The position numbers and the translations under genes were made by a program. A stretch of DNA of 64,000 bases from Acidobacteriota bacterium (GTDB lineage Bacteria > Acidobacteriota > Terriglobia > Acidiferrales > UBA7541), in NCBI GenBank assembly GCA_003225295.1, contig QHYZ01000069.1, forward strand, positions 1 through 64,000, in the 5' to 3' direction. This document shows, piece by piece, positions 38,273-41,672 of this stretch. Position 1 is the first letter of the stretch, and each line of letters opens with the position of its first letter. The notes under the pieces were generated by a model. The model did no database searches. It saw only the letters and a program-made list of their open reading frames with translations, and was not told the DNA's origin.

Positions 38273-38362
38273 GGAGAGGTGACTGAGCGGTTGAAAGTAC
38301 TCGCCTCGAAAGCGAGCGTACGGGAAACCGTACCGTGGGTTCGAATCCCACCCTCTCCGCCA
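38273..38362 (+). tRNA. tRNA-Ser (anticodon CGA)
   Basis: A class II tRNA with full cloverleaf: acceptor GGAGAGG/CCTCTCC (38273-38279 with 38352-38358), discriminator G and encoded CCA (38360-38362). The anticodon stem is CTCGC/GCGAG with loop CTCGAAA (CGA at 38307-38309, reads UCG). The long variable arm has stem TACGG/CCGTA around a GAAA loop, and the T arm is GTGGG-TTCGAAT-CCCAC. Its 3' end is duplicated elsewhere in this window (41652-41672 direct, 63387-63415 inverted), typical of integration at tRNA genes. Confidence 0.97.
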
Positions 38363-38538
38363 CTTCTGCAAAGTCATTGATTTTCCTTCCCTTGAATTCA
38401 TGGTGTCTGTGTTGGTGGCTGACGTGCGGGGCTGCGAGTGTAAACGCCGAACTTATAGCCATGTGAAGCTGTCTCAGAAATCTTTGTTTACGCGGCCTTT
38501 GGAGTAAACATCGAGAAACGGTGGTCACCCGAAGTGAC

Positions 38539-38567
38539 GTGGTGGAGAGGGCAGCACTCTCACCCAC
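38539..38567 (-). repeat. tRNA-Ser 3'-end-like fragment
   Basis: Read on the minus strand this 29-base stretch starts GTGGGT, contains CCTCTCC and ends CCAC. It matches the T-arm/acceptor end of the tRNA-Ser (from GTGGG to CCAC) at about 21 of 29 positions by eye, with no body of a tRNA attached. A related stretch in the same orientation lies at 63191-63219. Confidence 0.45.
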
Positions 38568-38671
38568 GTTCCATGATGGAGTATTGGGGTGCCACCCGGG
38601 GTCCATGACGTACGCACAAATGTACTGACGCATTTCATTTCAACAGATATGCTGTCTTGTCGCGACTTGCT

Positions 38672-38947
38672 ATGCGATTCATCTGGGATGAGAACAACAA
38701 CCGCCAAAATCTTCACAAGCACTATGTTCGCTTTGAAATTGCCGTTCTCGTTTTCAACGATCCCTACGCGATTACGCAGCGTGACATCATTTTTGAGGAT
38801 GAGGAACGTTGGATAACGGTCGGAGCCATAGGGCCGGGTTCGATTCTATTGGTCGTTCATACTTTTTATGAGGAACACGACGAGGAAGTCAAAGGAGCAG
38901 AAGCGAGACATCCGAGCTATAGCCGCAAAAAGAGACGAAGACATTGA
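38672..38947 (+). CDS. brnT: BrnT-family type II toxin (ribonuclease)
   Basis: About 91 residues with the BrnT pattern: RFIWDENNNRQNLHKHYVRF, AVLVFNDPYAI, EDEERWITVGAIGPGS and LLVVHTFYEE. BrnT is a RelE-like-fold ribonuclease neutralised by BrnA. The family normally ends with an IISARxATxxER segment. Here the C-terminus is VKGAEARHPSYSRKKRRR, basic but diverged, so activity is uncertain. ATG at 38672 is chosen because it begins the family core. The downstream brnA overlaps and is truncated. The gene lies 310 bases after tRNA-Ser inside the accessory segment. Confidence 0.8.
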   Translation: MRFIWDENNNRQNLHKHYVRFEIAVLVFNDPYAITQRDIIFEDEERWITVGAIGPGSILLVVHTFYEEHDEEVKGAEARHPSYSRKKRRRH

Positions 38948-39200
38948 TTTCTCGGACGCTCCCGCGGTTGTCAATTGGAGCGAGGCCGAAATCGGGAAGT
39001 TCTATCGCCCAACGAAGAAGCTTGTTACGATGCGTCTAGATTCCGACGTCATCGCATGGCTCAAAGCCGATGGCCGCGGTTACCAGACCAAAGCGAATTG
39101 GCTGTTGTGACACGCCATGCTTCACTACACGAGAGAAAAGAGTCTTAGCGAGGGTGAAGGCTTCCGCCGGAAGATCGCGCAACAGGAAGGAAAGGCTTGA
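38868..39200 (+). pseudogene. brnA: BrnA-family antitoxin, truncated by a nonsense codon
   Basis: The frame reads KRDEDIDFSDAPAVVNWSEA, FYRPTKKLVTMRLDSDVIAW and LKADGRGYQTKANWLL, a BrnA antitoxin with its ribbon-helix-helix DNA-binding region. It then meets TGA at 39108-39110. The same frame continues HAMLHYTREKS to a second stop at 39200. BrnA proteins continue after RLLR with a few residues such as HAM, so a CGA to TGA change explains the stop, and the preceding TGG may be a mutated CGG. The last helix of the DNA-binding fold may be lost. Overlaps brnT by 80 bases. Confidence 0.7.
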
Positions 39201-39300
39201 TCATGCCGAGCCAGAGAAGCGTGAGAGCGAGGACCGGGCGGTTTCAAGAATGAAGGGCTGGCAGCACCACTCTGTTCGACCGATCACTAGCCGCACCGGT

Positions 39301-39654
39301 TCATCCTGCGGCGCGTAATGACTTCGCGAAGCTCTGGATGGCAGCTGATTCGCTGTCGTAGGTATCGAAGACAGTCAATAGTCTCGTCATCTGCAGTACC
39401 TCGCGAAATCTTGACCACACGTTCGCCAGCTTCAACGCGGCGTCGTGCGAGCGCGCACTGTTGAAGCAAGCCACCAGCACACCTACACCCGTACTATCAA
39501 TGTAGTTAACATTCGCAACGTTCAAGACGATCTTCTTTTTCCCCGCCATGAGCAGCTCTTTGATCTTTTCGCGGAACGCGTTGCTTTCCTCCCCCAACAC
39601 GATTTCGCCTTTCATGCCCACAACAGTAATGCCGTTCAATTCTTGTTCCGTCAT
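39301..39654 (-). CDS. STAS-domain anti-sigma-factor antagonist
   Basis: A 117-residue SpoIIAA/RsbV-like protein: TEQELNGITVVGMKGEIVLG, KKKIVLNVANVNYIDSTGVG, ALKLANVWSRFREVLQMTRL and FDTYDSESAAIQSF. The phosphorylatable serine is in DSTG (Ser54 from the chosen start). Dephosphorylated proteins of this type bind anti-sigma kinases and free the sigma factor. Its ATG overlaps the stop of the SpoIIE-phosphatase gene (TAATG), so the two are translationally coupled: the phosphatase probably dephosphorylates this serine. No RsbW-type kinase is encoded next to it. Confidence 0.9.
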   Translation of the reverse strand: MTEQELNGITVVGMKGEIVLGEESNAFREKIKELLMAGKKKIVLNVANVNYIDSTGVGVLVACFNSARSHDAALKLANVWSRFREVLQMTRLLTVFDTYDSESAAIQSFAKSLRAAG

Positions 39655-41087
39655 TATGAGTGCCAATGGTCTGTCCTTTTTGAGAAGTTCTGTCTTCGTT
39701 GGGCGGATCGCCCCACCAGGGGGGCACTTCGGCCGAGAGCATTTGAGGCACGCATCGCCGTTGCGGGCCTCACTGATGTAGTTGATAAGCTTGCCCCACG
39801 ATAGTGCACGGCGAGAACGGCGATGTCATCCGATTGCGGCGCGCCTTCCGTAAAGGCCCGCACCCCAGCACGGACGGCCTCGGCGAGGTCATCCACCGTC
39901 TGGCCAGGGAACTCCTGCAAGAGCCGGCGAAGCCCAGCCTCCCCGAAAAACTCACTGCTCCTGTTTTTCGCCTCGGGGATACCGTCCGTGTATATCAGTA
40001 GGAAGTTGCCTACCTCCATCTGAGTCGTCCCGCGAGTATACTGCGCATCGGAAAACATGCCGACCGGAAAATTCGATGACTCGAGGCTTTCCACCTTCCC
40101 CGAGCAGCGGCGAATCAGGGCCGGTACGTGACCTGCATTCACGTAATCCAAGCGCCCGGACGAATCGAGGATGGCATAGAAGAGGGTAGCGTACCAGTCT
40201 TCGGGACTGCGCTCGCACAAATATCGGTTCACCCGCGAGACGACTTCCTCCGGTGGAAAATCCAGAGCACCGATGGTCACAAATAGACCCTGCAGCAAGC
40301 TGGCAAGTAACGACGCCGGAATTCCCTTGCCCGCAATGTCGCCGACAAGCAATCCATGGCATCTGTCTGAGAGCTTAACAACATCGAGGCAATCGCCGCC
40401 GACCGCGTGGCACTCGACTGTGAAGCCAGTGACTTCGAGTTCCGGGACCCGAGGAAACTGGGCTGGTTGCATCTGTCGTTGGATTTGGCCTGTAATCTCC
40501 ACCTCGTGATCCAAACGAGCTTTTTCGCACAAAGCTGCGAAGAGCGCTGCGTTCTCGACGACCATGACAACCTTGCGAGTAAGCATTCGCAGAGCCTCGC
40601 GGTCGAGATGGAAGAACGGCCAGCTGCTATCTAGATAGAGGAGACCAAGCAACTCGCTTTGGCGTCCTGCGACGGTCGCATCGAGTGCTTCAGCGAGAGG
40701 CAGCTTGTCAACCGGAATCACCAGTATGGAGTGCAATCCGAGCGCCCCGATACTCCCCTGTCGAGCCGTAGATGAGTCTTTCTCGTCTTCAGTGACGATG
40801 AGTTCTCGACGGGAACCCATGACGCGCCTCAGGACGCCCTGGGAGATCTGTACCTGATGCAGCGGAAGTGAGACCCGCTGTGCGTCACGCGCCACCGTGA
40901 CCTCGAGGTTGCCGGAAGATATCGCGAGTAGCAACACTCCTTGCTGCGCGTGCGTAAGCTCAATTGCCGCGTCAACAATGGTAGTCAGTGCGTCTTCAAG
41001 TGCCGGGCGTGCAACGCCTGTACGCGCCAGCACACCGAGGTGATGTTCGACTTGAGTTTCAGGCGGGGGAACCATCATCAGCGTCAC
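39654..41087 (-). CDS. GAF-domain SpoIIE/RsbU-type PP2C phosphatase
   Basis: A 477-residue soluble sensor phosphatase. Residues about 25-185 form a GAF domain (LTTIVDAAIELTHAQQGVLL to LGLLYLDSSWPFFHLD). A short coiled linker (ARLDHEVEITGQIQRQMQP) leads to a PPM phosphatase domain (about 205-430) with metal aspartates in VGGDCLDVV, LVGDIAGKGIPAS, IYTDGIPEAKN and QSDDIAVLAV. The basic Ser/Arg-rich tail (after about 435) is low complexity. Likely substrate is the phospho-STAS protein encoded immediately downstream. The GTG start at 41087 has AGGAG eight bases upstream. Confidence 0.92.
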   Translation of the reverse strand: MTLMMVPPPETQVEHHLGVLARTGVARPALEDALTTIVDAAIELTHAQQGVLLLAISSGNLEVTVARDAQRVSLPLHQVQISQGVLRRVMGSRRELIVTEDEKDSSTARQGSIGALGLHSILVIPVDKLPLAEALDATVAGRQSELLGLLYLDSSWPFFHLDREALRMLTRKVVMVVENAALFAALCEKARLDHEVEITGQIQRQMQPAQFPRVPELEVTGFTVECHAVGGDCLDVVKLSDRCHGLLVGDIAGKGIPASLLASLLQGLFVTIGALDFPPEEVVSRVNRYLCERSPEDWYATLFYAILDSSGRLDYVNAGHVPALIRRCSGKVESLESSNFPVGMFSDAQYTRGTTQMEVGNFLLIYTDGIPEAKNRSSEFFGEAGLRRLLQEFPGQTVDDLAEAVRAGVRAFTEGAPQSDDIAVLAVHYRGASLSTTSVRPATAMRASNALGRSAPLVGRSAQRRQNFSKRTDHWHS

Positions 41088-41651
41088 GGATTTGTCTCCT
41101 CCAGCTAAGCATTTTCGTCATTTCAGATTCAGTTGCTCGCTGAATCTCGAGTCTGTCTCGTGACCGCACGGAATTGAGTGCCTACTTCTGTCACGGACAT
41201 CATTTCAGAACATCGTTGGTTGCGTTTCTTCGTGGGCCGACGAAGGAGGCTAGGAGATTAAGCTGGGGGCAACTTCAAAGAATGCTCTAAGTGCCCGACC
41301 TTAACGCACGGGAGGGGCTCAAGTCAACCAAAACAAGCGATCAGAGGAAAGATGGCTTGTTTCGCCCCAATTTCGCCCGCAAATCGGATTGACAGTGCGC
41401 CTACGGCGCAGATGCTGATATGTTTATATTTTCCGGCGAGCCTTCAAAAAAATACAGATTCAGATGATCGCTGACATGAACTGAAGGCTTGGTGTTCTTT
41501 AGTGTCTGTTCAGGCCCGAAATTGGTGCTATTTTAAGCGGAACAGTTTAAAGAGTTGCAGTATGCGAGATCATAGAAACCGCCAATATCCGCGAGGGTTT
41601 CATGCATGTTGCTGAAAAGATGATACGATACGAAAAGCGGCTGGGTGAGTG
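41088..41651. other. Long non-coding stretch upstream of the phosphatase
   Basis: 564 bases without a supportable gene. Base composition becomes more AT-rich near 41400-41600 (runs such as TTTATATTTT and AAAAAAA), unlike neighbouring coding DNA. It ends at the tRNA-Ser-derived repeat. Confidence 0.55.
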
Positions 41652-41672
41652 TCCCAGCCTCTCCGCCACTTC
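41652..41672 (+). repeat. Direct copy of the tRNA-Ser 3' end (candidate att site)
   Basis: This stretch matches 38346-38366 (T arm, acceptor, CCA and four flanking bases) at 20 of 21 positions, including an exact 14-mer CTCTCCGCCACTTC (41659-41672). Just before it, CTGGG-TGAGTGT-CCCAG (41641-41657) can form a T-arm-like hairpin, but no tRNA body is attached. The same orientation as the tRNA gene makes the pair look like attachment sites bounding 3.3 kb. Confidence 0.6.

Follow-up and report, generated by a model that had tools for sequence, protein, structure and literature searches.

A tRNA-Ser island that carries no integrase is one of a family of small islands in a genus of Acidobacteriota and was probably moved in trans

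How does a small genomic island come to sit at the 3' end of a tRNA gene when no integrase lies inside it? The question is raised by positions 38343-41668 of a 64,000-nucleotide stretch of DNA from a soil bacterium of the Acidobacteriota (contig QHYZ01000069.1 of assembly GCA_003225295.1), hereafter called the window, which is part of a contig of 66,257 bases (C379) in a genome of 8.1 Mb and 385 contigs (G000). We analyzed this segment against a comparison set of 36 genomes of the genus and a wider set of 399 genomes of the class. Our answer, to which we assign a probability of about 0.7, is that the segment is an integrase-less mobile island, one member of a genus-level family, that was moved by a recombinase acting in trans.

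The segment begins within a tRNA-Ser(CGA) gene called by ARAGORN (38273-38362, plus strand), and an Rfam match to RF00005 at 38273-38359 agrees with this call. The last 20 bases of the gene (38343-38362) make up the left attachment site, attL, as located by a core scan. On the far side lies the right attachment site, attR (41649-41668, plus strand), a displaced copy of the tRNA-Ser 3' end that was found by repeat alignment and the core scan and has 3 mismatches to the 20-base core; the tRNA itself is intact. The initial annotation, made by a model from the letters of the window, had described this bracketing and a copy of 20 out of 21 bases extending past the CCA, and both are present. In the longer direct repeat (38336-38369 and 41642-41675) 28 of 34 bases agree, whereas 200 rounds of Markov shuffling applied to the downstream DNA never exceeded 22 of 34, ruling out a chance origin. 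We also rejected a widespread unrelated repeat as its source. When 38200-41800 was searched against its own genome, the tRNA-end matches were a tRNA-Ser(GGA) gene on contig C187, a second core at 63.4 kb of the window, and C140. The C140 locus (L075) has a pair of core-like sequences about 1.65 kb apart, and ARAGORN calls no tRNA there. At the gathering threshold, Rfam detected the tRNA alone and no further RNA gene on the island ends. The GC content of the island (38363-41651) is 0.540 compared with 0.573 for the window, and it falls to 0.507 and 0.478 in the stretches 38363-38656 and 41088-41641, so that the non-coding DNA is AT-richer, as had been noticed.

Next, an empty insertion site, which the initial annotation had proposed to look for, was found in 4 of the 36 genus genomes (G013, G022, G005 and G048). 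There, 88-115 bp separate tRNA-Ser(CGA) from msrA downstream; in the window, this chromosomal neighbor lies beyond attR (42453-42935, minus strand). The empty sites, together with the ends shared among genomes described below, support the earlier proposal that an island integrated at the tRNA 3' end and is now a remnant or non-autonomous.

A second copy of the island tells how recently it moved. Genome G023 carries the same four genes (BrnT, BrnA, a SpoIIE phosphatase and a STAS protein) and both ends, but at tRNA-Ser(GGA), and two different tRNA genes are thus used. No relative was seen in which BrnT and SpoIIE-STAS are syntenic at this locus without the tRNA-end copy; G023 has the copy, at a different tRNA. 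The DNA of the window and G023 is 93% identical over 38890-41394 and 89% identical over 38273-38891. Synonymous divergence (dS) between the two is 0.10 for BrnT, 0.15 for BrnA, and 0.18 for both SpoIIE and STAS, whereas that of chromosomal genes is 0.92 (TadA), 1.21 (w37022), 1.34 (MsrA), 1.44 (SDR) and 2.16 (w43015). For scale, the dS of MsrA between the window and its sister genome G015 is 0.18. Therefore, the island moved horizontally, and recently, between genus members that are only distant relatives.

The island ends are shared well beyond these two copies. The conserved left end (38363-38567, plus strand), 84-91% identical in G023, G043 and G002, contains putative arm sites at 38400-38409 and 38412-38421, and in left ends similar repeats stand about 40-60 bp from the core. 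Its inner edge holds an inverted, degenerate core-like sequence (38540-38559, minus strand; 5 mismatches in the core scan). A left-end query matched 19 places in 15 of the 36 genomes; 12 of these cover the tRNA end alone or little more, and the other 7, in 6 genomes, match beyond it. The conserved right end (41488-41651, plus strand), defined by alignment with other right ends, turned up at 10 places spread over 6 of the 36 genomes, counting the window and two short matches of 36 and 54 bp. In the eight right ends that were aligned, the end opens with a tandem repeat, TTGGTGTC-TTTGGTGTCTG, and about 165-185 bp then lead to the core; the corresponding sites of the window (41489-41508) are degenerate. 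With up to two mismatches, the tandem repeat occurs at 8 places in 5 of the 36 genomes, 7 of them right ends, and a reversed-pattern control gave 4 places. With up to one mismatch, the 399 class genomes yielded 9 places, 7 of which are the same right ends, and the control 2. Because the pattern was taken from these right ends, their recovery is by construction, and the informative result is the scarcity of the repeat elsewhere. A scan of genome contigs detected the exact repeat in 12 stretches, 4 of them on contigs of G015, G002, G023 and G006. We interpret the end repeats as putative arm sites for an integrase.

As the initial annotation had suggested might be seen with its attachment core, these ends recur with other cargo in the genus. 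Both ends enclose the same cargo in the window and G023, and different cargo in G002 (contig C381; zeta-like and TOTE genes) and in G006, where the right end is 69-71% identical. Only the left end was seen in G043, with zeta-like cargo. Only the right end was seen on G015 contig C181, beside a Wadjet JetABC system (JetA-JetB-JetC, L061 2332-7866), and on G002 contig C327, with an SNF2 protein and a piece of BrnA at the contig edge. Part of the left end accompanies BrnTA on G021 contig C244, and G045 has a short left-end match, BrnTA alone at tRNA-Ser(GGA) and a partial core as judged by eye. G023 has a second right end 8.4 kb from the first.

What could move such islands? In line with the initial annotation, no integrase was found inside this one: none of the 67 PF00589 matches of its own genome (59 above the cut-off) falls on the window contig, and four integrase queries gave no tblastn match in the window. 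Likewise, G023 has no integrase between the tRNA and its outer right end, among open reading frames (ORFs) of at least 110 amino acids and by the four tblastn queries, and G002 C381 has none between its two ends. Elsewhere in the genome of the window, tyrosine recombinase matches are clustered in a row on C298 (6268-13359), C262 and C347.

Larger relatives, where the initial annotation had advised looking for an integrase, provide candidates. In G020 an intact tyrosine integrase of 414 amino acids lies beside tRNA-Ser(CGA), followed by AbiEi/AbiEii, BrnTA and an exact 23-bp copy of the tRNA end. G006 has an island of roughly 10 kb with matching arm repeats and core, in which the 57-amino-acid start of an integrase is cut by an IS110-like gene. 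This start resembles the N-terminal part of the G002 C381 integrase (BLASTP E 2e-6 in a single comparison), and 0 of 1000 shuffles did as well against either the G002 or the G015 integrase. The G002 C381 sequence is an integrase N-terminal part just past attR (Pfam below cut-off), that of G015 C181 is a frame-broken integrase, also just past attR, and G002 C327 has only a similar leader. In the genome of the window, a piece of 52 amino acids beside tRNA-Ser(GGA), at a contig edge, is 96-98% identical to integrase starts of G011 and G024 that adjoin tRNA-Ser(CGA). Neither Pfam nor PHROGs recognizes this piece alone as an integrase, but the longer G024 protein aligns with the G020 integrase at E 2e-29.

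On this basis we propose that the family consists of small islands, most of them apparently lacking an integrase, with two conserved ends, each made of a core and putative arm repeats, and varying cargo genes, several of them of the toxin-antitoxin or defense type. Site-specific recombination that joins the attP of the element to the tRNA-Ser(CGA) 3' end would leave the tRNA intact and displace the 3'-end copy to the far side. The tyrosine recombinase of another element would act in trans; for islands stacked in tandem at one tRNA it would act in cis. The window copy itself appears now to be decaying.

The cargo is consistent with such decay. The four genes match their Pfam families above the cut-off. 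The toxin gene brnT (38657-38947, plus strand) matches PF04365 only at positions 1-63 of 77, whereas the G023 protein matches all 77. Alignment with G023 and G020 revealed a single 63-bp deletion that spans the end of brnT, removing its C-terminal conserved part, and the start of brnA, leaving an antitoxin remnant (38868-39110, plus strand; PF14384) with an in-frame stop at 39108-39110. Thus, the SpoIIE gene, the STAS gene and the broken brnA of the initial annotation were all recovered, but the toxin is damaged as well. The complete BrnT and BrnA frames of an intact type II toxin-antitoxin pair are absent from the window and present in G023. Of the seven BrnT copies compared, two others look broken as well, in G020 (in-frame stop) and in G021 (found as two tblastn pieces), and those of G023, G018, G024 and G045 keep the conserved part.

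The remaining two genes lie on the minus strand. A gene for a STAS-domain protein of the anti-sigma-factor-antagonist type (39301-39666; PF01740, E 5e-16) adjoins one for a GAF-SpoIIE protein phosphatase (39654-41087; PF07228, E 2e-45, positions 3-191 of 192), the pairing of a partner switch. Both frames are still open, and their dN/dS values against G023 are 0.08 (STAS) and 0.32 (SpoIIE). SpoIIE-family phosphatases dephosphorylate a STAS protein, which then binds an anti-sigma kinase; the island phosphatase may act on its STAS neighbor in this way, and the latter would then bind an anti-sigma kinase of the host. A cognate anti-sigma kinase or sigma factor is not among the four identified island genes, the rest of the genome not having been searched. 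Among the matches listed from the 35 other genus genomes, a close relative of SpoIIE was seen only in G023 (90% identity), and the next of the listed matches by E-value are 36-37% identical. A plasmid origin of this gene was rejected, as 266 plasmid records matched and every one of them was below 60% identity. Among the genus genomes, BrnT and SpoIIE-STAS were seen together only in those of the window and G023, and therefore their association may be incidental cargo. A literature search for BrnT combined with SpoIIE found no paper.

The window copy has also received a dispersed repeat of about 80 bp (41395-41476, plus strand) that is not in G023. On contig C271 an IstA/IstB-like (IS21-like) gene pair lies between a full copy of it and a partial one of 45 bp, and further copies are present on C221, on C309 (45 bp) and on one G018 contig. 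Because the related copies flank the IS21-like pair, the repeat is possibly a small non-autonomous IS21-like derivative. Hairpin folding is not significant in either the insert (z -0.80) or the left end, including its inverted core-like sequence (z -1.17). The broken brnT and brnA, the degeneration of the right core and of the arm repeats, and the inserted repeat akin to IS21-like ends make the island copy of the window look decayed.

This damage invites another reading, in which the island integrated once by means of its own integrase, later lost that gene by deletion and has been immobile since. The broken brnTA, the degenerate core and arm repeats and the inserted repeat would all fit, as would the integrase start of G006, cut beside matching arm repeats. 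However, no integrase was found in the G023 island either, which has the same genes at another tRNA and the low island dS given above, so that the loss must have preceded the transfer or occurred twice; moreover, G002 C381 provides another two-ended island, with different cargo and likewise no integrase enclosed. We therefore consider a dead remnant unlikely. Alternatively, ordinary homologous recombination through the tRNA-Ser genes and neighboring sequence could have moved the cargo with no site-specific step. The two tRNA-Ser genes have about 32 identical 3' bases in common, and the inversion described below could arise by homologous exchange too, but in both the window and G023 the island spans from the tRNA 3' end to the 3'-end copy, the tRNA flanks differ among genomes, and the conserved ends hold repeats that homologous exchange does not need. 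This explanation seems to us quite improbable.

Several observations weigh against our own reading, an integrase-less island moved in trans. Neither the arm-repeat scans of the genus and class genomes nor tblastn turned up an autonomous driver that combines these arm repeats with an intact integrase. The four integrase queries had no match at the loci of 5 of the 8 arm-repeat places, and matched only incomplete integrases past attR (G002 C381 and G015 C181) and nothing in G006, where the 57-amino-acid start has by itself no integrase match in Pfam or PHROGs. The repeats flanking the intact G020 integrase look different by eye. G044 has an arm-repeat match without a core nearby, and in the window itself the right core has 3 mismatches and the arm repeats are degenerate. 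The exact arm repeat and the right core matched no viral contig in our scans, by which a phage satellite was rejected as well. No excision or circular form has been observed. Finally, the flank past attR is irregular. The gap between attR and msrA is 784 bp, compared with 88-115 bp in the empty sites, and holds an unexplained ORF of 186 amino acids (41874-42434, plus strand) with no Pfam match, to the left of the break in similarity with the sister genome; G015 is 96.6% identical from 42423 on and diverges leftward, where Fic and DUF3800 genes lie. The first 62 bases past attR match other flanks weakly or not at all: shuffles were as good in 14 of 500 cases for G011, and in 55, 94, 109 and 315 of 500 for four others. 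In G023, msrA follows attR after 84 bp. Given the weak or absent flank similarity and the long gap, the chromosomal junction of the window is less certain than that of G023.

The second tRNA-Ser gene used by the family leads to a larger rearrangement. In the four genomes that have both genes on one contig, tRNA-Ser(CGA) and tRNA-Ser(GGA) are convergent, 20-27 kb apart in G010, G007 and G014 and 44 kb apart in G020. We defined a segment from msrA to an SDR gene (42453-59766 in the window) and could score its orientation in 19 of the 36 genus genomes, the other 17 giving none. It runs one way in 10 genomes (G000, G013, G022, G005, G006, G004, G048, G020, G042 and G050) and the other way in 9 (G010, G007, G014, G023, G045, G008, G009, G012 and G003); in five of these genomes (G000, G006, G020, G023 and G003) the connection is longer, spanning 4 to 30 kb, and often passes through islands. 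On a tree of 34 genomes, built by a quick method from 761 columns of seven genes in or beside the segment, 5 changes of orientation are needed, 3 of them forced by well-supported branches, and the states show no significant clustering (a value as low came up in 75 and 71 of 500 shuffles). Misassembly of metagenome-assembled genomes at the shared tRNA bases could mimic some of these states, a caveat that is weaker for the four single-contig genomes. Because of the 3' bases common to the two tRNA-Ser genes, homologous or site-specific recombination could invert the segment.

In the window, a second tRNA-end core (63398-63417), which the initial annotation did not mention, lies with a left-end remnant at 63339-63417 on the minus strand, at the place expected for the tRNA-Ser(GGA) side of the segment. 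A helix-turn-helix antitoxin-like gene (62624-63043) adjoins them, and the whole of 62624-63417 is perhaps another decayed island on that side.

A wider picture can be drawn in which recombinase-free cassettes with two attachment arms load anti-phage and toxin-antitoxin cargo in trans at two tRNA-Ser genes, and the same activity repeatedly flips a core segment of about 20-27 kb; we offer this only tentatively, and doubt that all of it will hold. Integrase-free islands at tRNA genes are easily dismissed as relics. In this family the ends are conserved from one species to another, the cargo varies, and one cargo set was transferred between genomes whose core genes are near synonymous saturation, which makes trans-mobilization directly testable; the convergent tRNA-Ser pair offers a natural inversion series. 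For Acidobacteria, no such islands appeared in the titles and abstracts of the papers listed by a full-text search.

Comparison with known systems places the island among elements of a familiar kind. A cis-mobilisable element (CIME; PMC5704250) resembles the window island, which keeps attL and attR and in which no integrase was found. The tandem layouts of G002 C381 and G015 C181, where integrase sequence lies past attR at a shared target gene, are suggestive of the mobilization of a CIME by accretion with an integrase-bearing element. No transfer gene is among the four identified genes, the remaining small ORFs not having been scanned and conjugation genes not having been searched for. Unlike CIMEs, members of the window family with the same ends vary in cargo. 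A CIME derives by deletion from an integrative and conjugative element (ICE) or an integrative and mobilizable one; in this family the cut integrase start of G006, beside matching arm repeats, may reflect such a deletion, but no ICE parent was identified. The microcin H47 island of E. coli, described in PMC3191183 as small, without recombinase genes, flanked by imperfect direct repeats and 'parasitic', is likewise an integrase-free small island between imperfect repeats, and is moved by functions supplied elsewhere. However, its excision and integration were demonstrated experimentally and its cargo is a microcin system, whereas the window island is at a tRNA 3' end and has conserved arm-like repeats. 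In the account of Dehalococcoides given in PMC3146451, 16 of 31 ssrA-specific islands hold an integration-associated gene module. Those islands are similar in that many occupy one small-RNA gene, vary in cargo and were recently transferred, but the window island is without the module and its family uses two tRNA-Ser genes. The integrase of Thermococcus pTN3 inverts DNA between tRNA-Leu attachment sites, according to the experiments reported in PMC5495485. The acidobacterial inversion is similar in lying between inverted tRNA attachment sites; the Thermococcus case is archaeal and experimental, with the tyrosine recombinase of the element as its catalyst, whereas ours was deduced from genome comparison. 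Thus, the kind of element, an integrase-less island that is CIME-like or 'parasitic', is already known. The novelty appears to lie in a family, spread over a genus, whose members combine conserved arm-like ends with differing cargo, in transfer between two tRNA-Ser sites, and in the invertible segment associated with it.

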